Part shown: positions 4,251 through 31,477 of the stretch, one piece after another | Layout of the letters: each line of letters starts with the position of its first letter | Numbering within the stretch: the first letter of the stretch is position 1 | Assembly (NCBI GenBank): GCA_016650175.1 | Contig: JAENWG010000010.1 | Span: 1-41,868 of the forward strand | Direction of reading: 5' to 3' | DNA length: 41,868 nucleotides | Source: Peptostreptococcaceae bacterium | GTDB lineage: Bacteria; Bacillota; Clostridia; Peptostreptococcales; Anaerovoracaceae | Made by a program: the position numbers and the translations under genes | The notes under the pieces: generated by a model | The model's database searches: none | Told to the model about the DNA's origin: nothing | Seen by the model: the letters and a program-made list of their open reading frames with translations, nothing else

Positions 4251-5243
4251 CTATTTACTTTCAAAATCAAAATATGTTCCTATATTCTTCTCTTTCGCCA
4301 ATTCAAATATCTTAACTGCTGTTACATTATCTTGAATACCCATTCCTGTAGTATCAAATATCGTTATTTCATTATCGCTTATTCTTCCTGCCTTCTGGCC
4401 TTCAATAATTTCTCCAATTTCAGCATGGATATCATCTTCTAAAATCAATCCATTTATTACCGCATTTCTGATTTCACCTCTAGATAAGCACTGTTTAGCA
4501 CTATCAACCACTATTTTTGAACCTATAAATATTTCAGGATCCCATTCGTTTTTACCCTGCATATCAGCACCCACTGCCACGATGTGGAGACCATCTTTTA
4601 CCCGTTCTTTATCAACCCAATAAATTTTAGTAGGTGTCGTAGATATTGCTATATCTGCATTTTTCATAGCAGACGCTACGGAAGCACACATGATTACCTC
4701 TAAGCCAGTTTTTTCTTCAACATCAGCCTTATAGTCCTCTAGTTCTTCTACCTTAGGACTAAAGACCTTCACAGTTTTAATCGGCATTAATTCAGCCAAA
4801 GCATATATTTGCATTCTAGCCTGAGAACCGGCTCCAATTACAGCTACTGTCTCTGAATTTTTTCTAGCTAGATATTTACATGAAATAGCTCCGGCTGCCC
4901 CTGTCCTATAGTTTGTTATCAAGGAGCCATCCATTACACATACAGGAAGTCCATTTTGACCATCTAAAATCACTATGGTTCCTTGCATAGTTGAGATATC
5001 ATACTTCTTTGGATTATCCCAGTATCCTGAAGCTATTTTAATTGAAACCATATCATTTTCTTCATTGTAGCAAGATTTTATATCTGTCTCTCCATTATTG
5101 TTTTTTTCTTCAACAGTAACTACATCAGGTTGTGATACCTTACCTCTGTTATAAGAAACATAACCGCCTTCTACAGCTTCTATTACATCTTTCATAGATA
5201 GTACCTTTAATACATCTTCATAACTTAATAATAATGTTTTCAT
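4251..5243 (-). CDS. Ornithine cyclodeaminase/mu-crystallin family protein
   Basis: 330 residues, the usual family length. The Rossmann nucleotide-binding segment is VAVIGAGSQARMQIYAL (about 135-150), preceded by the conserved lysine in VSIKIASG and the arginine in NYRTGAAGAIS, and followed by VGADMQGKNEWDP. Family members include ornithine cyclodeaminase, delta-1-pyrroline-2-carboxylate reductase, alanine dehydrogenase of the archaeal type and diaminopropionate-forming enzymes; the sequence alone does not decide between them. It lies 18 bp downstream of the aminotransferase gene in the same operon. The IS110 element follows its stop codon, so it is now probably the last gene transcribed from the promoter at 6465-6493. 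Confidence 0.88.
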   Translation of the reverse strand: MKTLLLSYEDVLKVLSMKDVIEAVEGGYVSYNRGKVSQPDVVTVEEKNNNGETDIKSCYNEENDMVSIKIASGYWDNPKKYDISTMQGTIVILDGQNGLPVCVMDGSLITNYRTGAAGAISCKYLARKNSETVAVIGAGSQARMQIYALAELMPIKTVKVFSPKVEELEDYKADVEEKTGLEVIMCASVASAMKNADIAISTTPTKIYWVDKERVKDGLHIVAVGADMQGKNEWDPEIFIGSKIVVDSAKQCLSRGEIRNAVINGLILEDDIHAEIGEIIEGQKAGRISDNEITIFDTTGMGIQDNVTAVKIFELAKEKNIGTYFDFESK

Positions 5244-14971: not shown

Positions 14972-17781
14972 TCAATTCCCTTTGTTTTTTCTCAAAATAA
15001 ATCTATCTAACAAAAGTATAATTGGAGGTAATACTATAAAGGTACTAAATAAAGCTAATGAAATGTTAATTACAGTCATTAGTCCAAAATCTCTAAGTAT
15101 AACAAACTGTGATGCCATCAATACGGAAAATCCACCTATGGTAGTTAATCCTGAAGCTACAATTGCTTTACCTATTTTACTGACTGCGGTAACTATAGCT
15201 TCTGTTTCACTTTCACCTAGTTTACGTTCCTCTAAGTATCTTTCCATTAGCATGACTGTCATTTCGGTACCCATACCTAATACCAGTGCACCTAAAGTAG
15301 ATGTAATCGGTGTGTAATCAATCCCAAGTAAATACATTACGCCACTTGACATACCTATTATAAGAACAACCGGTATTATAGGTAACAATGCTTTAACAGG
15401 GTTTCTGTAAATCAAGAGTAATGCTCCGAAAACCAGTAACAAACCTATAAGGGTCATTCTTACTCTGCCAGAGGTAAGTCCATCTACCATTTCCAAATCC
15501 AAAACACTCTTACCCGTAATTTCAATTCCCATATCAGTATCTTTTAGTTCGCTTTCTAGTTCTATAACAAATTCATCTAATTCATCGTTAGGTAAATGTT
15601 TAATATTAACCAGTATCAAAGATTCAGTATTATCTTCGTTTACAAACATACTTGCCTGCTGACTAGGTAGCCCATCAATCATATCGATGTATTCTTCATA
15701 GCTTAGATCATTATCTCCTGAAAGATTTTCTGCCAAGGTATCAATAGATTTTACGTCTGTTACAGTTTCACTAAATTTATTTTCTATTTCTTCTGTCTTG
15801 GCCTTTATCCAGTCTTAATTTTCCTCTTCTAATACATTATCATCTTTTATATAGATGGCTACTTGATCTGTTGAACCTACCGTGTCTCTAACAAAATGTA
15901 TATCATTTAATGCTTCCATGTCTTGTGGCATAAATGTCTCAATATCTGTTTCAACCCCTATATTTTTATCTACCATAAACCCCGCAGTTGCAAAACAAAC
16001 TATGATAATTATTATTGGGATAGAAAACTTTATAACTTTTTGTGTAGTAAATTTCAATATCTTGTTTAATACAGTTTCCTTATCTTCCTTTATTTCAGTA
16101 TTAATTTCTGGTGAACTTTTATCTCTTAAGTATAAAATTGGCATAAGCAGTAGTACGCTACCTATAAAGCTAATGATAACTCCAATTGTTAACATCTTAC
16201 CAAAATCCTGAATCATAGGAACTGGAGATGCATATAAAGAAATAAATCCAAGCACTGTAGCTAATACTGCTATAGCTATTGCCTTACCTATTTGAGTTAC
16301 TGTTTTAATTACTGACTTTTCTTCTTCATATCTATTATGAAATTGTATCGAATAATCTATACCTAAACCTATTAATATTGGAAAAACTGCCATGGATACC
16401 ATTGTAATCGGCACGCCTAAATGTCCCATAAGTCCTACTGTAGCTACAACTGATACTAGAATCACTCCTAAGCTCAGCGTTCTCCATCTCACTTTAAATA
16501 TAATTGCAAGAACCGCTAACATAATTAATATGGCTAACCCCACCATTATCATCATATTAGTTTTCATTTCCGTCCTTAATGACGAATCAAGTACAGGCTT
16601 ACCTGATACAACATATGATATATTTTCAAAGTCTTCTTCTAATGCTTCAGTCAAATCACTAACAATCTGATCTTTATATTCATCATCCAAATTACCTTTT
16701 AGCTTCACTACCATTAAGCAATTTTCGTCGTCTATCATAACGTCAGAAAATATAGCACGCAATTCATTGTCATCTTCATATAAGATGTTATCTGTTTCAT
16801 CTTGATTTTTAGGTATATCAGCTATCATCATGTCGCTTTTAGTATGAAAAAGCTTTAAACCTTCAGAAACATTGCTAAGATTTTCACCCATAACTATAAA
16901 GTCATCAGCCATTTCCATTAGCTCATCAGCTGAAATGCCATCTGTAAATCCATCTTTCATAGATGCAACTTCAGTAGTTAAGTTACTGTTAATATTTGTA
17001 AGTGCTGTTGAAGTGTTTTCAGTACCCTTCAGTATGTTTTCAGTACCTTCTCCCATTGTTCTAACGTTTTGAGAGGTAACCTCAATATTTTCAGAAATTA
17101 CAGTTAATTTATTCTTTAGTTCAATATTGTCACCAGCTAAATTAGTCAAAGCATTTAACTGATCAGATGTAGCACTCAAACCATCTGCTACAGTAAACAG
17201 TCCTGTCTGTGTTTGCTGAGTTACTTCTGTTAAATTATCTTGAACAGTAATAAGCTTATTAAATGCTTCAGTAGACTCCGATAGACTATTCAACTTTTCT
17301 AACATTTCATCGGGGTCATTTATATCTTTTGAATTAAGTTCATTTCCTAGTCTATCATTTTAGAACTCATTTCGTCTAATCCATCACTTAAGGTTAGTAC
17401 TTGATTTTTTAACTCCGTACTTTGTTTTTCTGTTAACTGATGAATTATACTTGCTGGGCTTGTAAAAGAAAAAATGCTATCTTCGTATTCAAATTGCTTT
17501 TCGACATTCCACATCTTTTCAATGTTTTTTTGTGCTAACAAATTTCCGTTTGAATCATCTGTAAAAAGAACTAAAATAGAGTCTCCCCCAAAAGTCTCCT
17601 CCATCTGTTCCTCCGATATGTAAACTTCGTTATCACTTTGTACTAGCGTTTCGTTTCCTGTGGCCATCTTAATCGTACTTACTCCGGTAATTAATAATGC
17701 AAATAGTAGCATGGTTACCAGTAATACTTTAACTGGTTTCTCATTAATTAATTCCCCTATCCTTTTAAAAATTCTGTTCAT
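14972..17781 (-). pseudogene. MMPL/RND-superfamily transporter, broken by a frameshift and a stop
   Basis: Three open segments (17781-17347, 17305-15815, 15736-14972) join into one protein of about 935 residues, the expected size for a two-half MMPL (RND) transporter. The first starts with a membrane helix (VKVLLVTMLLFALLITGVS). The second contains a heptad-rich extracytoplasmic part and a five-helix block with GLGIDYSIQFHNRYEEE. The third repeats that block (VLGMGTEMTVMLMERYLEE). Lesion 1: at 17358-17361 a run of four A's (minus strand) shifts frame; a fifth A would restore it. Lesion 2: an in-frame TAA at 15815-15817. Such pumps move lipids or drugs out of the cell. It is in one operon with the TetR gene. 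A sequencing error could explain lesion 1, less easily lesion 2. Confidence 0.82.
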
Positions 17782-20399: not shown

Positions 20400-20498
20400 A
20401 TAAAAAAAGCGCCCTACTCCTTGCAAATGCAAGTTTCTGACGTTTTTATGTGGAGGCGACACCCAGATTTGAACTGGGGGATGGAAGTTTTGCAGACT
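20400..20498 (-). repeat. att repeat 1: 3' part of tRNA-Cys plus its terminator (left boundary)
   Basis: 99 bp identical to 25622-25720. From 20451 to 20499 it equals the 3' part of the intact tRNA-Cys (31403-31451): CCA end, acceptor strand, T arm and anticodon loop. 20400-20450 is the tRNA terminator region. No 5' half follows, so it is not a functional tRNA. This is the classic left attachment site of an element integrated in the tRNA gene. Confidence 0.92.
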
Positions 20499-20611: not shown

Positions 20612-20809
20612 TTACAGCTTTCTTAAGTATTCTTTAAAATCTTCTTCTGTAACAAATCGGCTGTTGCCTATTTTTTTACTTGGAAAAGAATTATCTTCAA
20701 ATAAGTTGTATGCGCTTTGCGTTCTTATCCTCAAATATTTTCTTACATCTTGCGGTGATAATAATACCGGTAATTTAGCAATTCCATGTTTTGTTTCTAA
20801 TTTCATCAT
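20612..20809 (-). CDS. Excisionase-like HTH protein (element A)
   Basis: 65 residues with GGAGG seven bases before the ATG. A MerR-type excisionase HTH is visible (LLSPQDVRKYLRIRTQSAYN, then FPSKKIGNSRFVTEEDFKEY). Such proteins steer tyrosine integrases toward excision. It lies about 110 bp from att, where an integrase gene would normally also be found, but none is present. The element B counterpart at 25864-26061 has the same length and pattern. Confidence 0.82.
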   Translation of the reverse strand: MMKLETKHGIAKLPVLLSPQDVRKYLRIRTQSAYNLFEDNSFPSKKIGNSRFVTEEDFKEYLRKL

Positions 20810-20922
20810 ATTTATTCCTCCTTCTAATATACCTATTTACTTCCTTATTATATAAATAGGCAACAGCCATATTTAAGTAACTCCTTAAAATTTATGCCAA
20901 CATTCTTAATTGTTGACTTATT

Positions 20923-20932
20923 GTCTGTAGAC
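20923..20932. promoter_or_regulatory. Candidate XRE operator (element A)
   Basis: GTCTGTAGAC, an inverted repeat (GTCT/AGAC), lies 56 bp upstream of the XRE gene in the divergent region shared with the excisionase gene. The same motif recurs at 26144-26153 and as GTATGTAGAC at 26296-26305, always followed by a TTATTGTAT-like or similar tract. This suits autoregulation by the C-protein-like XRE product. Confidence 0.6.
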
Positions 20933-20988
20933 ATATTGTATTCTTTTATATAATCTTAACATATAATTAAGTCAAGCGGGAGATGAAA

Positions 20989-21213
20989 ATGGATATTTTA
21001 AAAGTTTTTGGAGATAATCTTAAATACTATAGAGATTTAAAAGGCTTTACTCAAGAAGAATTCGCCTTTAAATGCGGATTACACAGAACTTATATAAGTG
21101 CTATAGAACGATATAGAAGAAGTATTTCATTAAATAATATACAGAAAATAGCTGATGCTTTAGAAATCGAGACTTATATGTTATTCATACAAAATGATTC
21201 TAACCATAACTAG
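20989..21213 (+). CDS. XRE-family regulator resembling restriction-modification C proteins (element A)
   Basis: 74 residues from ATG 20989, spaced seven bases from GGGAG; the ATG at 20983 is too close. Nearly the whole protein is an XRE HTH: LKYYRDLKGFTQEEFAFKCG, then LHRTYISAIERYRRSISLNN and IQKIADALEIETYMLF. The LHRTYISxIER...ISLxNI pattern and the small size match controller (C) proteins of restriction-modification systems, but no restriction or modification gene is here. It is divergent from the excisionase gene and probably controls both. Confidence 0.88.
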   Translation: MDILKVFGDNLKYYRDLKGFTQEEFAFKCGLHRTYISAIERYRRSISLNNIQKIADALEIETYMLFIQNDSNHN

Positions 21214-21272
21214 TTAAATTAATTATAGTAACTAATACATATTTCTATTTTTAAATGCATATTTAAATTAAT

Positions 21273-21304
21273 AAAAAAAGTGGTACAAAATAACCACTTT
21301 TTTT
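21273..21304. terminator. Bidirectional terminator between XRE gene and unknown operon
   Basis: Stem AAAAAAAGTGGT with ACCACTTTTTTT and an 8-base loop, with A and T runs on either side. Confidence 0.88.
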
Positions 21305-21311
21305 ATTATTA

Positions 21312-21863
21312 TTAATTTTCATCAATTAACCCTTTATTAAATGACAAACCTAATGACTCCATCATTTTTTCCTTCGCTATAAAATATGATGGGTCTATTT
21401 TATTATCATCAATCCGTTTTATTATTAAATCCGTTAATTTAGGTTTAGTAAAGTTCTTAATCATTTTTTCATTGTGCAACGATAAAACAATTTCTTTTGC
21501 AAATCCTCCTAAACACGAATAACTCAGTTCTGTTATATCACGATGCATATAATTATATTCTTTAATCGAGTTTGCAGAACTCGGATCATTATCTACTGTA
21601 AAACCTTTACTGATAAGCTCTTCCTCCGACAAAATTACCATTTCTACTTTTCTTATTTCATCGCGTGCAACGCACAAAGCTATTGCAGCGTTCTCTACTT
21701 CTTCAACATCTTCTATATCTTCGACTCTCCAAACAGACAATCGGTTTTTTGTGTCAGTCTGTAAATCCTTTGTAATAGTGTGTGATGGATAAGACCCGAT
21801 ATCTTCTTCTTCATTAATGCCTCTCCATTTACTACCTGCAATCATTCTAATTAAGTATGCCAT
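21312..21863 (-). CDS. Unknown protein, third gene of a three-gene cargo operon
   Basis: 183 residues, soluble. The N-terminus MAYLIRMIAGSKWRG is followed by an acidic stretch (SVWRVEDIEDVEEVENAAIA) and a segment EYNYMHRDITELSYSCLGGF, then a helical C-terminus. I have seen similarly arranged proteins in mobile DNA but know no function. It starts 3 bp after the upstream gene's stop and shares its operon and terminator with 21867-22583 and 22580-23302. Tight coupling suggests the three products act together. Confidence 0.75.
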   Translation of the reverse strand: MAYLIRMIAGSKWRGINEEEDIGSYPSHTITKDLQTDTKNRLSVWRVEDIEDVEEVENAAIALCVARDEIRKVEMVILSEEELISKGFTVDNDPSSANSIKEYNYMHRDITELSYSCLGGFAKEIVLSLHNEKMIKNFTKPKLTDLIIKRIDDNKIDPSYFIAKEKMMESLGLSFNKGLIDEN

Positions 21864-21866
21864 TCT

Positions 21867-22583
21867 CTACAACCTTATTCTTATATCTCTAATTACAGTT
21901 ACTATATAATCATCTAGCCACTTTTCCCCTGTTTGTATTTCTTCTAAAAAATCTATTGCCTCATTATTAGACCATTGTTCAAAAATGTTAATCGCTAATT
22001 CCTTTATTTCAATATCCTTACTTGCAAAAAAAGTCCCCACCATACAAACACCCTCTGGCTCAATCTCTTCATAACTTAAAGATGTCAAAATATTAATTAC
22101 CGCTATCCATACATCTTTTTCCTTAGAGTGGTGTAACAATACTTTTTGAATTGCTGTAAGCACATCCTTTTTATTTTTCTTTACTTCTGCTCTAATATAC
22201 TTTATACAATCATTTTCATAACCCATTTCAAACTCATCACGTTTTATCATTAAATAAATGTATTCGCTAAAATCATCGTCAGTATTTATTGTTAACGTTC
22301 TATTTGTAATTTTTTGTTTCAAGTCTGATTTTGTACTTTCCTTGTAAGTTTCTTTTTTTGTATCAATTTTTTTTGTGCTGTCAATATTAATTTCATTGTT
22401 TTCTTCATAAATCAAATCTATAATCATACCATCTTTATTCAACAAATTCTTATTGTCCATTTGTGTAGTTTCAGAGTCTCTGTTCTTATTAATTTCACTC
22501 AAAATATTGTAATTTCTATTAAAAGTTTTGTAATATGCATGACGTTCTTCAGATTGCTTAGCATTCCCTTTATAGTTTTTCAT
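21867..22583 (-). CDS. Unknown protein with HEAT-like C-terminus, second gene of cargo operon
   Basis: 238 residues. The first 110 are polar and low in complexity (many Asn, Lys, Glu), probably disordered. The last 130 are helical and HEAT-like: KKDVLTAIQKVLLHHSKEKD, then AVINILTSLSYEEIEPEGV and ELAINIFEQWSNNEAIDFLE. HEAT-like folds bind proteins or nucleic acids. The start overlaps the stop of the preceding gene by four bases (ATGA). I do not recognise the family. Confidence 0.75.
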   Translation of the reverse strand: MKNYKGNAKQSEERHAYYKTFNRNYNILSEINKNRDSETTQMDNKNLLNKDGMIIDLIYEENNEINIDSTKKIDTKKETYKESTKSDLKQKITNRTLTINTDDDFSEYIYLMIKRDEFEMGYENDCIKYIRAEVKKNKKDVLTAIQKVLLHHSKEKDVWIAVINILTSLSYEEIEPEGVCMVGTFFASKDIEIKELAINIFEQWSNNEAIDFLEEIQTGEKWLDDYIVTVIRDIRIRL

Positions 22584-23302
22584 GCTAATTCCTCCTTGAA
22601 ATATTTGATTTTTTCTACTTCAATACTGCAAGCGTTTTCTAAAAATACTTCAAATTCATCAATTTTAAGTCTTTCTCCTTTTTTGTAAAATAATGTATTT
22701 ATATCGTAATGTACTAACAAACCGTCTAGTTTAATCTGTTTGCCATTAATAACAATCTGGTTATTTTTGAGAAGGCTTACTTCTTCAATAACATTTAAAA
22801 CCTCATCTATTTGAAGTAATTTTATTGGTTGTCTAAATGTTTTTCTTGTATTCCATTCATGAAGTTTCATATCATCTTTTGAATTACAAACAATAAAGTT
22901 ACTAGACTCAATATTCTTATCTTTTTCAACTATATAATTACTATTAAAAGCAAATCTGCTACCTTTAAAACCAAATTCCTCACAAAGGTTTTTCATATAT
23001 TTAAATGCGATTTTCGATTTCTCCTCTATTAAATTGTTTGAAAAATTTGTTTCTTTATCAAATTCTTGAACAAAGTTAATTCTTTCTGGTAAAAATTCAA
23101 TTCTCCATTTACTTTTCTGATTTATAACTTGAGGTCTATCAATTACATTTGCCGTATTATCAATTACATTTAACAATTGTAAAGAATTAAACATCACTTC
23201 ATCATCATCAAATACTCTTAATAGTCTTTTAACCGTAGCCGTCGAATTATTTAAATCTGGCATATTAGTAAATATTGTAAACATAACTTGAACAAGCTTC
23301 AT
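22580..23302 (-). CDS. Unknown protein (weakly TIGR04255-like), first gene of cargo operon
   Basis: 240 residues, no membrane segment. The C-terminal pattern LLVHYDINTLFYKKGERLKI followed by DEFEVFLENACSIEVE recalls the sporadic TIGR04255 family, where a DIDT-like strand precedes a helix; this likeness is weak and could be wrong. GGAGG sits five bases before the ATG. It overlaps the next gene by four bases. The operon has a possible -10 TATAAT about 30 bp upstream. It is the leading gene of a conserved-looking trio of unknown role in element A. Confidence 0.72.
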   Translation of the reverse strand: MKLVQVMFTIFTNMPDLNNSTATVKRLLRVFDDDEVMFNSLQLLNVIDNTANVIDRPQVINQKSKWRIEFLPERINFVQEFDKETNFSNNLIEEKSKIAFKYMKNLCEEFGFKGSRFAFNSNYIVEKDKNIESSNFIVCNSKDDMKLHEWNTRKTFRQPIKLLQIDEVLNVIEEVSLLKNNQIVINGKQIKLDGLLVHYDINTLFYKKGERLKIDEFEVFLENACSIEVEKIKYFKEELA

Positions 23303-23487
23303 AATTTCCTCCTTGATACCATATCTATTATACTACATGAATTTCTTAATATAATCAATATCCAATAATTACAAATTTTAGGCTTTTCATTACACGATAT
23401 TGTTATTTTCTTTTATAATTTATTATATACCTTTTATTATTCACTTTCAATGCCAAGGCAACCGAAAACTATTTATAATAGTTCTAC
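23303..23487. other. Upstream region of the unknown three-gene operon
   Basis: About 185 bp, AT-rich. A TATAAT on the minus strand about 30 bp from the operon start is the only promoter element I would suggest; no matching -35 is evident. Confidence 0.4.
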
Positions 23488-23664
23488 TTATTCCATCACA
23501 TTTGTAAAAAACTTGATTAATTCATTATATGGTTGCTTAGTTAGATTACTTACATCTTTTAACACACCTTCGCTTGCAACCTGAAGTTCTGCCAACGTAG
23601 TCTCTGGATCTGTATCTCCTATTTCAATATAAGCTACATCCTCATTCACATTAATCTTTAACAT
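23488..23664 (-). CDS. Small conserved element protein, 58 aa (element A copy)
   Basis: 58 codons, ATG 23664 to TAA. Its N-terminal 30 residues (MLKINVNEDVAYIE...TDPETTLAELQVA) are almost identical to the protein at 28027-28203; 45 of 58 positions agree overall. The RBS region AAGGAAGGTG is also shared. It lies last in the cargo operon of its element in both cases. Acidic and soluble; similar small proteins occur in clostridial phages and plasmids, with no known function. Conservation while cargo differs suggests a role for the element, such as regulation or maintenance. Confidence 0.78.
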   Translation of the reverse strand: MLKINVNEDVAYIEIGDTDPETTLAELQVASEGVLKDVSNLTKQPYNELIKFFTNVME

Positions 23665-23773
23665 TCGTTTACACCTTCCTTTTCTCAGATTAATATAATC
23701 ACATCTTATTCATCTAAGAATACGCGAGTGCTAAACGTGCCCTTTTGTTACAGAATTGTGTTAATATTAATGC
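23665..23773 (-). repeat. Dispersed intergenic repeat, copy 1 (leader of the 58-aa gene)
   Basis: About 100 bp similar to 24599-24692 and 28204-28350. All three carry GCTAAACGT and an ATTRATATAATMA-like tract near the next gene (as read on the plus strand). On the minus strand they are ACGTTTAGC and a TTATAT-type -10. Copies 1 and 3 also share the inverted repeat TCTTA/TAAGA. Probably a shared promoter/operator. Confidence 0.68.
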
Positions 23774-25621: not shown

Positions 25622-25720
25622 ATAAAAAAAGCGCCCTACTCCTTGCAAATGCAAGTTTCTGACGTTTTTATGTGGAGGCGACACCCAGATTTGAACTGGG
25701 GGATGGAAGTTTTGCAGACT
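25622..25720 (-). repeat. att repeat 2: 3' part of tRNA-Cys plus terminator (boundary of A and B)
   Basis: Identical over 99 bp to 20400-20498. Identity with the intact tRNA-Cys runs from 25673 to 25720 (CCA end to anticodon loop). It marks the junction of the two elements. Confidence 0.92.
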
Positions 25721-26061: not shown

Positions 26062-26143
26062 TATATCCCAATACCTCCTGTTCATATAAATAGTATTTAA
26101 GTTATAACTATTTATATCTTAAATATTAATGAGTTCTCTTATT

Positions 26144-26153
26144 GTCTGTAGAC
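26144..26153. promoter_or_regulatory. Candidate XRE operator 1 (element B)
   Basis: GTCTGTAGAC, identical to 20923-20932 and with similar surroundings (TTATTGTCTGTAGAC). It lies upstream of the broken XRE copy. Confidence 0.58.
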
Positions 26154-26207
26154 TTATTGTATATTAATTATAATCTTAATATAGAATTAAGTCAAGCAAA
26201 AGTATAA

Positions 26208-26290
26208 ATGAATACTTTGAAAGTTCTTGGGATAATCTTGTAAGACATAGAATGTTAAAAAGATTTACTCAGGAAGCATTTGCCTTACAC
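26208..26290 (+). pseudogene. Remnant of an XRE gene
   Basis: About 27 codons that align with the start of the element A XRE gene (ATGAATACTTTGAAAGTTCTTGG then GATAATCTT...). One base is missing before GATAATCTT, which shifts the frame, and the similarity stops after GCCTTA. A second operator and the intact XRE gene follow at once. It shows that a former left-end module was overwritten by a new one. Confidence 0.75.
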
Positions 26291-26295
26291 TTATT

Positions 26296-26305
26296 GTATG
26301 TAGAC
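26296..26305. promoter_or_regulatory. Candidate XRE operator 2 (element B)
   Basis: GTATGTAGAC, one base from the other two copies, 55 bp upstream of the intact XRE gene at 26360. Confidence 0.55.
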
Positions 26306-26359
26306 TTTTTGTCTGTTATTGAAGTACATTAGATACATAAAAGTGGAGGTGATTGAATT

Positions 26360-26590
26360 TTGGACATTATAAAAGTATTTGGAACTAATTTAAAAGAATA
26401 TCGAAACAAAATAGGTGTTTCTCAAGAAAAATTTGCAGAAATGTGTGGTTTGCACAGAACCTACATTAGCGATATTGAAAGATTTCAACGAAGCATATCT
26501 TTAGGAAATATACAGAAAATAGCTGATGCCTTAGAAATCGAGACCTATATGTTATTCATACAAAATGATTCTGATGATATAGAAGATTGA
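26360..26590 (+). CDS. XRE-family regulator resembling C proteins (element B)
   Basis: 76 residues, starting with TTG, with GGAGGT nine bases upstream. The HTH (LKEYRNKIGVSQEKFAEMCG, then LHRTYISDIERFQRSISLGN) is homologous to the element A regulator, and the last third (IQKIADALEIETYMLFIQND) is identical between them. No restriction-modification genes accompany it. It probably represses its own and the excisionase promoter; control of the cargo is possible. Confidence 0.87.
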   Translation: MDIIKVFGTNLKEYRNKIGVSQEKFAEMCGLHRTYISDIERFQRSISLGNIQKIADALEIETYMLFIQNDSDDIED

Positions 26591-26716: not shown

Positions 26717-27256
26717 TTAATAGCCATTGGCTTCAACACCATAAGTTGCTTGTTCTGTTGTAAAACCTTCGTACACTAATTGATCTATTAATCCTTGACG
26801 AGAAAAAGAATCATAATCTAAATATTCTTTTGCACAATATTCTGCTTGATCATTCCAATTCGCTCCACAATTGTCAGAACCATAGGTCGCTTCTTCTGTT
26901 GTATAACCTTCATACTCTAATTGTCCTATTAATCCTGTATAGGAAAATGCGCTATAATCTAGATAATCTTTAGCTGTATTTAGTGCATTTTTTTCTCCGA
27001 TAGTAATTGGATCCTCTTCAACTACAGGTTCTTCAACGACAGCTTCTTCAACGACAGCTTCTTCGGCGACAGTTTCTTCGGCGACAGCTTCTTCGGCGAC
27101 AGCTTCTTCTGTCCCTTCAGTTGCTGTTGACTCTAAATCATCATCACTTAATCCCGCACCACCTATTCCAAATAATAACACAATAATTATCACCCAGAAC
27201 CACCATCTTTTAAATATAGATTTTTTAACTTTTGGGTTTTGTTTGTTTCTTTTCAT
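26717..27256 (-). CDS. Ltp-like membrane-anchored protein, candidate superinfection exclusion factor
   Basis: 179 residues. A basic N-terminus and one membrane helix (WWFWVIIIVLLFGIGGAG, about 18-36) anchor it. Then comes an acidic repetitive linker (EEAVAEEAVAEETVAEEAVV) and two copies of the 'host cell surface-exposed lipoprotein' (Ltp) motif: NALNTAKDYLDYSAFSYTGL with GQLEYEGYTTEEATYG, and CAKEYLDYDSFSRQGL with DQLVYEGFTTEQATYG. In streptococcal phage TP-J34 the Ltp protein blocks DNA injection by related phages. Here the anchor is a membrane helix, not a lipobox. It is alone between terminators, GGAG-type RBS. Function is inferred from the family. Confidence 0.82.
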   Translation of the reverse strand: MKRNKQNPKVKKSIFKRWWFWVIIIVLLFGIGGAGLSDDDLESTATEGTEEAVAEEAVAEETVAEEAVVEEAVVEEPVVEEDPITIGEKNALNTAKDYLDYSAFSYTGLIGQLEYEGYTTEEATYGSDNCGANWNDQAEYCAKEYLDYDSFSRQGLIDQLVYEGFTTEQATYGVEANGY

Positions 27257-27994: not shown

Positions 27995-28012
27995 GGCAGC
28001 CCGAAAGCTGCC
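27995..28012 (-). terminator. Intrinsic terminator of the element B cargo operon
   Basis: Stem GGCAGC/GCTGCC with a 6-base loop, followed by TTTTTT on the minus strand. It ends the operon 30799-28027 and lies directly after the stop of the convergent gene 27478-27990. Confidence 0.85.
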
Positions 28013-28026
28013 TGTAATAATTCTAT

Positions 28027-28203
28027 TTATTCTATCGTACCTTTGAAAAACTCTTTCAGTTCTTCATAAGGTATTTCTGTCCGCTTACTAACATCCTTCA
28101 ACACACCCTCGCAAGCTACCTGAAGTTCCGCTAATGTAGTTTCTGGATCTGTATCTCCTCTTTCAATATAAGCTACATCCTCATTCACATTAATCTTTAA
28201 CAT
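28027..28203 (-). CDS. Small conserved element protein, 58 aa (element B copy)
   Basis: 58 codons, homologous to 23488-23664 (45 of 58 residues identical, the first 30 nearly so: MLKINVNEDVAYIERGDTD). Differences cluster in the C-terminal half. It lies last in the cargo operon, after the AAA-DUF4435 pair, with the shared leader 28204-28350 before it. No known function. Confidence 0.78.
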   Translation of the reverse strand: MLKINVNEDVAYIERGDTDPETTLAELQVACEGVLKDVSKRTEIPYEELKEFFKGTIE

Positions 28204-28350
28204 TCGTTTACACCTTCCTTTTCTTGGATTGATATAATCATATCTTATTCATCTAAGAATCCGCTAGTGCTAAACGTATCTTTTTGATACATAGTTGTGC
28301 TATTTTCAATGATATTAGATAATATTTACTCATTTCATAGGCATCTTCAA
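28204..28350 (-). repeat. Dispersed intergenic repeat, copy 3 (leader of the 58-aa gene)
   Basis: The first 105 bp closely match copy 1 (23665-23773), including CATCTTATTCATCTAAGAAT-like, AGTGCTAAACGT and the GTTTACACCTTCC start. The last 40 bp up to the DUF4435 gene do not. Confidence 0.68.
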
Positions 28351-29256
28351 TTAACCAAGTTGCGTGTTAATATACCGTGACAAACAGTCTGGAACTTCTG
28401 CATATTGTGTCAAATTTGATATCAAAGTGTTCTCTTCGATTTTACCTAATGTCACAAGTCTTCTCTTCCTAAAATACTTCCAATTGGCTCTTTTATTGGA
28501 ATCCTCAAACATATTATTCAAATATAAAGGCATAGCCTGCCTAAAATATTTGCCTCTTATCAGTTTTTCTGGTTCATTTTGCAAATATTTTATTGCATGT
28601 TCTATTTCATTTTCATTTACTTCTACAAAATTTGGGATTAAATCCATTACTTCTTGATAATTTTTCAATCCTTTAATTTGATTATATTTCTTCATTTTGC
28701 TTAAGTCTGGTTTATCGCAACAATATTTAGCTTTATTCTTCTGCAAATAATAACACGCATTTGCATATAGTATTTCTTGACAAATTATATCTCTACTACT
28801 TTTTAAATATTCAACAGCTGATTCATAATCTAAATAATCCTCGTGATTTTTAAAACCATTAAATCCCATTGTACCCTTAACTATTTCCACTATTGCTTCA
28901 TCTGTTATAAATAAATTTTCTATTGAATAACAAGGGGTAACATATATTTCTTTGGGAATATCAGAATTATCATCATAGTCTTTATCTACGAAATACAAAA
29001 GTTTTTTATTTTTGGCTAATTTTGTAGACCTTTTAATAAATTCATATACTTTAATAACATTCTCTTTACCCTGGCAAATGTAATGATTTTGTTTTCTTCC
29101 TTTATAGAAAGATCTTAGAACGCTGCCATAATATAAATAATCATCTTTTCCTTCAAAAAATAAGAATATATCATATCTACTGAATTCTGAAATAAATTCC
29201 ATATAAACAACCTGATCGCCTTCAGCTTCATTAATTAAATCATCGACTAAACTCAT
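28351..29256 (-). CDS. DUF4435 (TOPRIM-like) protein, AriB-like effector candidate
   Basis: 301 residues. The N-terminal half has the TOPRIM-type acidic pattern: FFEGKDDYLYYGSVLRSFY (glutamate at about residue 33) and LLYFVDKDYDDNSD (aspartates at about 88-92), followed by YVTPCYSIENLFIT, a usual DUF4435 motif. In PARIS, DUF4435 protein AriB is released by the ATPase AriA on sensing a phage anti-restriction protein and acts as a toxic tRNA nuclease. The gene lies one base after the AAA ATPase gene. The pairing and residues support a PARIS-like effector; target and trigger are unknown. Confidence 0.8.
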   Translation of the reverse strand: MSLVDDLINEAEGDQVVYMEFISEFSRYDIFLFFEGKDDYLYYGSVLRSFYKGRKQNHYICQGKENVIKVYEFIKRSTKLAKNKKLLYFVDKDYDDNSDIPKEIYVTPCYSIENLFITDEAIVEIVKGTMGFNGFKNHEDYLDYESAVEYLKSSRDIICQEILYANACYYLQKNKAKYCCDKPDLSKMKKYNQIKGLKNYQEVMDLIPNFVEVNENEIEHAIKYLQNEPEKLIRGKYFRQAMPLYLNNMFEDSNKRANWKYFRKRRLVTLGKIEENTLISNLTQYAEVPDCLSRYINTQLG

Positions 29257-29257
29257 A

Positions 29258-30799
29258 TTATTCCCCTACTTTTAAAAATGATAGCTCTTTTGTTAATTCT
29301 GAATAATTTTCTTTGAAAATAAAAGGAGAGTGCGTAGCTACTATTAGCATCGCAATTTTTTTAGATTCATAAATATCCTTTAATAAGGTCTTCTGCCAAG
29401 CTATGGACAATGATAATTCAGGTTCATCCATTACCATTATGCCTTTTGTCATTAATTCTAAATACACTTTAGAAAAAACCGACACTATTTGCTTTTCACC
29501 TGAAGACAACTGATCGAATGTAATAATTTCGTTGTCATTAGTTATAATTTTAATTGATAACAAAGCTTCATTATATTCAATCTTTTTATTCGTAAGATAT
29601 TTATTACAAGTGCTTGTAAAATTTTTTAATTTGTCATTTATTGCTTCTTGATCTTTATATATGTCTACCAACCTGTTTAAATAATAACTTAAAAACACTT
29701 GATTCGTATTGTCAAGATTACCTTTTAGGAAACGATTTAATTTGCTTAAATTCTTTATACTATCACGACCTATGCGGTCTATTACTACGTTTGCTTTATA
29801 TATATCCATTTCATTATAATCATTTGAGAGTTCATCTATACTTTTATTACTTAATAAGTCTCCAATGATCTCGCCGTTCATTTTTGTATATGAATTGTTT
29901 GCATCTTCAGACATTTTCATTAATAGATTATTAATAATCATTTCAACATCATGCATTCCAAAATTTGCATAATTAATCATTTTATTGCTGTTTGTTCTAT
30001 TAGAAATTTCATCATCCATAGATACTTCAATTCTTCTATAGGTCGGGAAAAAACAAACTTCTTCACTTATCATGCTTTTTATCTCAAACAACTCCCTAGA
30101 ATAGCTGTAGCTCATTATACGCCTAATCCTATATAACAAATATTTAGATTTATCATAATCTTCCATAGGTCTTCTATAATTGAGGCTATGAACACGCACA
30201 TATTCTTGCCTTTTTAATTCTTTTGAAATATACCTTTCAAGAGTTTCAATACCATCCGCACTTTGATCATCAAGATAACTTTTCAACCTTCGTCTTATCG
30301 TAGGAGAAAAACTCTCATAATTATCATCAATCAGGTTTTCAATTTTACTAATCATTTCTCTATTGACTTTTTTCTTTCCATTATCTATATTAAATACTTT
30401 ATCCTTAACACCTACTGTTATACTTTTAAAATTGATATTCACTAAAAGTCTCTCATTTCCAGTCAAAACAGCATTTATTATATTTAAGATAGTCGTTTTT
30501 CCTTGCCCGTTCTCTGAAACCCAAATATTTATATCTTTATCAAAGTCTATAAAATAATCATTTTTACCAAACAGTCCAATAATTTTAATCCATTTTAATG
30601 GAGATGTATTCATGTTTTTCTTTGGTATTTTATTAATCTCAAGTTTTTTTAGAGCCTTTGTTAATTCTTTAGTTTGTAATACCACTATTCGCCCATCACT
30701 TACCTCTACGTTGTTATTATTGTACTCTAAATATTCAAACATTCGTTCATTTGCCATTCCATATTTTTTAGCAAGCTCGCTTACTTCGTATTTAGTCAT
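29258..30799 (-). CDS. AAA (ABC/OLD-like) ATPase, AriA-like sensor candidate
   Basis: 513 residues. Residues 1-60 look like a small helical, possibly DNA-binding part (YEVSELAKKYGMANERMFEY). The ATPase follows: Walker A in VSENGQGKTTILNIINAVL (about 95), a long helical insert, the signature FDQLSSGEKQIVSVFSKVYL, Walker B in GIMVMDEPELSLSIAWQKTL and the switch histidine in VATHSPFIF. This is the ABC-type AAA fold of OLD, RecF and AriA proteins. The partner DUF4435 gene next to it favours PARIS. The start has no adjacent Shine-Dalgarno site; the hairpin at 30809-30830 lies between it and AAGGAG. Confidence 0.87.
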   Translation of the reverse strand: MTKYEVSELAKKYGMANERMFEYLEYNNNNVEVSDGRIVVLQTKELTKALKKLEINKIPKKNMNTSPLKWIKIIGLFGKNDYFIDFDKDINIWVSENGQGKTTILNIINAVLTGNERLLVNINFKSITVGVKDKVFNIDNGKKKVNREMISKIENLIDDNYESFSPTIRRRLKSYLDDQSADGIETLERYISKELKRQEYVRVHSLNYRRPMEDYDKSKYLLYRIRRIMSYSYSRELFEIKSMISEEVCFFPTYRRIEVSMDDEISNRTNSNKMINYANFGMHDVEMIINNLLMKMSEDANNSYTKMNGEIIGDLLSNKSIDELSNDYNEMDIYKANVVIDRIGRDSIKNLSKLNRFLKGNLDNTNQVFLSYYLNRLVDIYKDQEAINDKLKNFTSTCNKYLTNKKIEYNEALLSIKIITNDNEIITFDQLSSGEKQIVSVFSKVYLELMTKGIMVMDEPELSLSIAWQKTLLKDIYESKKIAMLIVATHSPFIFKENYSELTKELSFLKVGE

Positions 30800-31400: not shown

Positions 31401-31402
31401 TG

Positions 31403-31477
31403 TGGAGGCGACACCCAGATTTGAACTGGGGGATGGAAGTTTTGCAGACTTCTGCCTTACCGCTTGGCTATGTCGCC
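31403..31477 (-). tRNA. tRNA-Cys (GCA), intact; integration site
   Basis: 75 nt with CCA encoded. Acceptor GGCGACA pairs with TGTCGCC; the anticodon loop CTGCAAA gives GCA. The 3' half is repeated at 20451-20499 and 25673-25720. The recombination point lies in or near AGACTT, in the anticodon arm. Confidence 0.97.

Follow-up and report, generated by a model that had tools for sequence, protein, structure and literature searches.

A conserved three-gene operon of integrative elements, plasmids and prophages as a candidate anti-phage cassette with a putative ART-fold effector

Results

The window analysed here is a stretch of 41,868 nucleotides from the genome of a Peptostreptococcaceae bacterium (contig JAENWG010000010.1). 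It contains a tRNA-Cys gene and two further copies of the 49-bp stretch found at the 3' end of this gene (Table 1). The 49-bp stretch occurs at these three places only in the whole genome, and its copies delimit two tandem units of ~5.2 kb (element A) and ~5.7 kb (element B). Common to both elements are an HTH_17 protein, an XRE regulator (the two XRE genes are paralogues, with a 219-nt repeat at 77%) and further repeats, including a 300-nt repeat at 82%, the first copy of which holds a 58-aa ORF with no Pfam match. A 30-nt motif around CTTATTGTCTGTAGAC is repeated upstream of both XRE genes and is possibly the operator of these regulators. Since no integrase was recognised in either element (ORF lists; Pfam on ten products), we infer that both were probably moved in trans.

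The cargo of element A consists of three genes, which we call A, B and C, while that of element B is a PARIS pair whose Pfam families are AAA_21 and DUF4435. The original prediction, made from the sequence alone, had placed the trio in the slot that PARIS holds in element B, and this is borne out by the common backbone and site and by the AriA and AriB matches. The sole genome of the same genus (G001) has a tRNA-Cys locus 91% alike, with TetR and MMPL genes resembling those of the window within ~6.5 kb of tRNA-Cys, and neither C nor A has a match there, which is what an insertion in the window's genome would produce. Elsewhere in the window, two ORFs correspond to parts of one 938-aa MMPL-type protein in G001, and this pair is either a broken gene or an assembly error in the window's genome.

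Table 1. Features of the window
Feature	Position	Strand	Evidence or size
Two ORFs, parts of an MMPL-type protein	15815-17781		
49-bp tRNA-Cys 3'-end copy, outer att-like repeat	20450-20498	+	
HTH_17 excisionase-like protein, element A	20612-20809	-	Pfam 1.1e-8
30-nt motif, first copy	20912-20941		
XRE-type HTH_3 regulator, element A	20983-21213	+	Pfam 6.4e-16
Hairpin with T/A tails, between C and the convergent XRE gene, just past C	21269-21308	unstranded	
Gene C	21312-21863	-	183 aa
Gene B	21867-22583	-	238 aa
Gene A	22580-23302	-	240 aa
Best promoter-like site, upstream of A	23450-23422	-	11/12
300-nt repeat, first copy	23462-23761		
49-bp tRNA-Cys 3'-end copy, between elements A and B	25672-25720	+	
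30-nt motif, second copy	26133-26162		
30-nt motif, third copy	26285-26314		
Paralogous XRE gene	26360-26590		
Lipoprotein_Ltp repeat protein, element B	26717-27256		5.5e-27
300-nt repeat, second copy	28001-28300		
PARIS AriB, cargo of element B	28351-29256	-	PADLOC 1.2e-26
PARIS AriA, cargo of element B	29258-30799	-	PADLOC 2.7e-35
49-bp stretch at the 3' end of tRNA-Cys itself	31402-31450	+	
tRNA-Cys gene	31403-31477	-	ARAGORN

The three genes are as tightly coupled as had been claimed: by their ORF coordinates A and B overlap by 4 nt and B is separated from C by 3 nt. Such spacing recurs at the other loci measured (see below), where the gap is at most 15 nt between A and B in 18 of 21 cases and between B and C in all 21. 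The hairpin just past C is a probable bidirectional terminator, and terminator-like sites are more numerous than expected (2 seen versus 0.6). Promoter-like sites as a class are no better than chance (19 seen versus 20.4 in shuffles), so that of the single promoter and single terminator predicted for the operon, the terminator is probable and the promoter weak.

Searches with Pfam, NCBIfam and PADLOC returned nothing significant for the trio proteins of the window, and PHROG placed C in phrog_10743 (4.7e-22) and B in phrog_21208 (8e-6), both families without function. No homologue was found by single-sequence searches with the window proteins in viral contig, plasmid, phage and genome contig collections, and among 99 relatives only the window itself was recovered. 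Several matches were set aside: a Stenotrophomonas phage match (E 0.3) was dropped after inspection, rows for A in 349 family genomes (best outside the window 0.008) were weak and taken as chance, HMM matches to SifB, ECSIT_N, Cmr4 and similar families scored far below cut-offs and were likewise attributed to chance, and an AtxA-like PDB match to B at E 0.02 was rejected.

The family became visible through intermediate sequences. Phrog_10743 is present in 1 of 393 genomes of the order (the window's own) and in 2 of 398 of the phylum, the second being G696, in which all three genes occur in the same order at 25-28% identity. The C protein of G696 matched a 5042-bp Enterobacter plasmid at E 0.05, a match whose identity was confirmed by PHROG scores, and this plasmid encodes all three genes, with A spanning the record start. 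With the plasmid C as query, we retrieved nine records of the plasmid collection (two Enterobacter, three Klebsiella and four Acinetobacter, of which two are chromosome-sized) and ten Acinetobacter phage records, three of them matching over at least 80% and seven over residues 1-47 only. When 84,980 species genomes were scanned with four C rows, 24 loci were obtained, in organisms titled as Pseudomonadota, Bacteroidota, Planctomycetota, Spirochaetota, Bacillota, KSB1, WOR-3 and others.

Gene order at these 24 loci was tested with HMMs built from the first six trios. C was found at all 24, directly preceded by B at 24, and A directly preceded B at 21. At L082 the contig starts inside B, and at L064 and L079 the HMM search found no A upstream, so two-gene B-C forms exist. 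Profiles rebuilt without the window score its A at 3e-32, B at 1.1e-35 and C at 2.4e-30 among 304 ORFs, none of the others reaching E <=0.01 for any of the three, and the window copy has all three genes in order and close together. The homologues therefore co-occur as a trio and are not scattered, and no housekeeping or conjugation matches were found for the three proteins (Pfam, NCBIfam and PADLOC; families listed for 70 trio proteins), so that neither of the two outcomes named as refuting the original prediction was seen. Distances between trios correlate among A, B and C (r 0.82, 0.80 and 0.80 in 20 sets, each reached by 0 of 5000 permutations), correlations into which shared host ancestry also feeds. 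Horizontal travel is likely, because the Pantoea C is closest to those of Microbulbifer (46%) and Kushneria (44%), while that of Serratia, a fellow enterobacterium, is outside its five nearest. In the alignments used here, C (25 rows) excludes L084 (truncated gene), A (21 rows) excludes L064, L079 and L082 (no A) and L080 and L081 (short or cut), and B excludes L082 and L084; L037 alone was taken from 26 viral loci, and the alignments for structure prediction exclude L024, L027, L028, L031 and L033.

The trio travels on diverse replicons. It is found on plasmids of Enterobacter (5.0 kb), Klebsiella (4.4 and 8.1 kb) and Acinetobacter (7.5 and 134 kb), of which those of 4.4-7.5 kb have few other genes annotated, and on a Serratia contig with MobC. 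In Acinetobacter Vieuvirus prophages it follows a lysozyme-type gene, and in one of them (L034) it precedes an IS and an integrase. In a Pantoea P2-like prophage (L067) the trio lies between gpA (1.2e-128) and the portal gene (2.3e-18). In a low-sensitivity search, 6 of 5426 E. coli genomes matched the DNA of the Pantoea trio in part, and both loci opened among the six (L103 and L104) encode A, B and C of 231, 215 and 171-173 aa between the replication endonuclease and the portal gene of a P2-like prophage. One E. coli trio spans NZ_CP025753.1 3194282-3196155. This gap between gpA and the portal gene (gpQ) is an anti-phage hotspot of P2-like prophages, occupied in P2 by old and tin (PMC9122126).

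Among the 24 loci of the species-genome scan, mobile features were recognised at six (L063, L067, L070, L075, L077 and L083), with integrases near the trio at L070, L075, L077 and, weakly, L083. Restriction genes were recognised at two: a DNA methylase and an MjaI-family restriction endonuclease directly precede the trio of a Ruminococcus MAG (L071, 369-2227), and a methylase and a Res subunit adjoin that of L086. At 16 of the 24 loci no mobile or defence neighbour was recognised among neighbours picked by eye. The neighbour scan comprised 20 proteins, chosen by eye, from 10 of the 24 loci, and we claim no enrichment because these proteins were hand-picked.

A, B and C thus form a conserved operon on small integrative elements, plasmids and prophages, in slots of known defence genes. 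A different explanation is that the trio is a toxin-antitoxin-type maintenance or competition module by which small plasmids and integrative elements stay in the cell, and that any phage defence is no more than incidental. The trio is the main cargo of small plasmids, at many chromosomal loci it stands alone among host genes, and one copy (L074) is followed by a PIN-domain toxin gene. A point against a defence role is that P2-like hotspots also carry cargo unrelated to defence, for example partition genes and toxins (PMC9122126). Against a maintenance module stand the location of the trio in the anti-phage hotspot of P2 and its proximity to PARIS and to restriction-modification genes, and the consideration that prophages would rarely need such a module for their maintenance. 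We regard this explanation as rather unlikely. A role of the trio in defence we consider quite likely, and probably against phages, because a fixed unit recurs on plasmids, prophages and chromosomes of many phyla, including a known anti-phage prophage site.

Protein C was modelled with a pLDDT of 90.6 (25-row alignment). In VIA, rows 1-27 are all ART-fold chains at Z 6.6-3.3, values that, by the tool's own note for those below 8, can be chance: KptA/Tpt1 at 6.6-4.1, CC0527 at 5.0, DarT at 4.2 and ART toxins at 3.8-3.3. The match to KptA (Z 6.6) has an rmsd of 2.9 over 83 aligned residues, and that to CC0527 (Z 5.0) an rmsd of 3.9 over 104 of 114. CC0527 is presumably a DUF952 protein, in keeping with a Caulobacter match. 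The first non-ART fold, CCDC25, appears in row 28 at Z 3.2. We favour the ART fold for C despite the low Z because different ART families fill the VIA list, and consider the predicted fold fairly probable. Other comparisons were weak or null: Foldseek gave a best E of 0.09, profile search found no PDB match, BFVD gave no usable match, and DUF952 was present in 0 of 60 genomes of the class. A comparison of C with a KptA profile (six-row alignment) by hhalign gave a probability of 0.3 percent and hence no support, and the controls C-A and B-KptA were likewise null.

Eight residues of C are invariant in all 25 rows (R6, W13, T31, T36, L42, S43, W45 and H107), and D109 is kept in 23. Judged by eye from their place in the fold, R6 and S43 fit the first two residues of an ART triad of the R-S-E type. 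No invariant Glu was seen in the 25-row alignment; the third residue of the classical ART triad would then be absent or substituted, and C might lack activity or handle NAD in another way. That C is an active ART we place a little short of an even chance. Residues 28 and 33 are His and Asp in the window C, while the 24 other rows have Asp (D28) and Cys (C33). The G696 C has the same His and Asp as the window at these positions, and the two may possibly represent a Bacillota subfamily with a changed site.

The model of A (pLDDT 89.4; AF2, 21 rows) has two alpha/beta repeats that form a duplicated saddle, and its nearest folds in VIA are the guanidino-kinase C-lobe/McsB (Z 9.2-7.0) and TBP (Z 7.7). 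McsB/arginine kinase and TBP were rejected as functions of A (Z 9.2-7.1 at ~6-12% identity) and kept as fold shape only. A is likely a partner or sensor. Its predicted weak likeness to TIGR04255 was lost on inspection, with no NCBIfam match for the window A up to E 10 and TIGR04255 absent among the 25 of 36 families listed for 70 trio proteins. The first ~100 residues of B vary strongly in length and sequence and are probably disordered, judging from sequence, and conservation rises from ~0.15 at residues 1-40 to 0.57 at residues 181-200. HEAT_2 matches 5 of the 70 trio proteins (the search does not give which members), and we infer that these HEAT signals would belong to the conserved back half of B. 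Conservation and HEAT_2 matches together uphold the disordered front and HEAT-like back that B had been assigned. Histone H2B rows for B were rejected.

These protein data bear on another alternative, in which the trio would be a three-subunit metabolic or regulatory complex (for example NAD- or RNA-related) carried as accessory cargo, with C a non-catalytic ART-like binding protein. The lack of an invariant Glu in C, the resemblance of A to guanidino kinase and TBP folds and the two-gene B-C forms (L064 and L079) are consistent with it. Against it, the trio moves with plasmids and phages, which is not expected of a core function, and its occurrence is patchy, as the above counts of phrog_10743 for phylum and order illustrate, both of which include the window's own genome. 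On balance this alternative appears very improbable.

In two Acinetobacter phages (L035 and L036), C is reduced to a 186-nt ORF (5001-5186 in each record) behind annotated ORFs of the size of A and B; these are the two opened of the seven phage records that match C residues 1-47 only. The shortening of C beside A- and B-sized genes suggests that A and B are not toxic in the absence of C.

Discussion

Based on our findings, we propose that A, B and C make up a mobile cassette directed against phages (or mobile DNA), in which C would be an ART-fold effector held by A and B; we see the balance for and against this proposal as even. We assign the part of effector to C because it is well conserved, its predicted fold is enzyme-like, B accompanied it wherever it was found here, and some Acinetobacter phages retain A- and B-sized genes next to a shortened C. 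A and B would hold C inactive, the HEAT-like part of B would serve as a scaffold, and contact with a product of the invader would fall to the variable front of B, to A or to both. Infection would release or activate C. Using NAD, C would then transfer ADP-ribose to a molecule of the host or the phage, and this modification would stop the infected cell or the phage. In its boldest form, which we offer as speculation more apt to fail than to hold, the trio would be a hitherto unrecognised, phylum-crossing three-component immune system, comprising an ART-fold effector with a non-classical active site in which R, S and H/D replace R, S and E, a HEAT-repeat scaffold with a fast-changing front that reads proteins of the invader, and a duplicated saddle-fold partner. 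Its vehicles would be tRNA elements lacking an integrase, plasmids and P2-like prophages.

The original prediction had singled out the trio as a candidate undescribed immune system. The immune reading is supported by the co-occurring trio and the slot parallel to PARIS. Its novelty is uncertain, because the trio lies in the E. coli P2-like hotspot from which a P1-protecting system of three genes lacking clear domains was described (PMC9122126). The two could be of the same family, in which case defence would already have been shown for a relative. They are alike in having three genes without clear domains and in the gpA-gpQ position. Three genes at the gpA-gpQ location are found at L067, L103 and L104, the E. 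coli copies being hypothetical genes of the sizes given above in the same hotspot, while the window copy sits in a tRNA-Cys element. Many other cassettes occupy the P2 hotspot, and the part of the PMC9122126 text consulted gives no accession for its system. Moreover, only 6 of the 5426 E. coli genomes matched the Pantoea DNA, in a search of low sensitivity. PADLOC, which may contain the P1-protecting system (presumably the one called 'Rst_3HP' in later tools), gave no convincing match. Common membership is unlikely in our view, if worth serious attention. If it holds, defence has been shown for one member, and what is new is the breadth of the family, the fold of C and the element in the window. 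No description of the trio was found in the literature searched, in which PMC13092281 (DefensePredictor) and PMC11813220 (Vieuvirus) were covered by search term only, and PHROG, Pfam, NCBIfam and PADLOC hold no name or function for it.

Returning to an ART-fold effector held by two partners, the closest parallel is CmdTAC, in which two partners keep an ART in check until a capsid protein is detected (PMC11618068). Both are three-gene operons that encode a small protein, of ART fold in CmdTAC and predicted to be so in the trio, with two partners that, for the trio, are proposed to control it. CmdTAC combines CmdT, with an HY-[EDQ] triad, SecB-like CmdC and CmdA (PMC11618068), whereas the trio combines C, with its invariant R and S, the saddle-fold A and the HEAT-like B. 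C lacks the HY-[EDQ] triad, its first-strand residue being Arg in 25 of 25 rows (paired with His by eye), and no SecB is named among the 50 VIA matches listed for A. By its triad the trio falls outside CmdTAC, yet it may work like it. DUF952 and PTS_2-RNA (KptA) are listed among the families of the ART clan (PMC7955679), and KptA/Tpt1 and DUF952 proteins resemble the model of C in fold. KptA and C share no profile-level similarity, and the His of the LYHGT strand of KptA is Arg in C (by eye). A DarG macrodomain was found neither among the Pfam families of the window proteins nor among the 25 of 71 families listed for 70 members.

If our proposal is right, three anonymous genes acquire a family definition that reaches from Bacillota and Bacteroidota to Enterobacterales, phrog_10743 and phrog_21208 acquire a meaning, and a further kind of ART-linked defence stands beside DarTG and CmdTAC. 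Its effector would have named residues and be testable, and the E. coli copies would be usable in a standard laboratory strain.

Known exclusion and defence genes share the positions of the trio. The P2 old and tin genes have the same prophage position, and the window trio has no significant Pfam relation to them. PARIS takes the corresponding slot of the window's sister element, and the window trio has no PADLOC match to AriA or AriB, which sets it apart from PARIS. Element B also encodes a protein with Lipoprotein_Ltp repeats (Table 1); Ltp lipoproteins are phage superinfection-exclusion factors in other Gram-positives.
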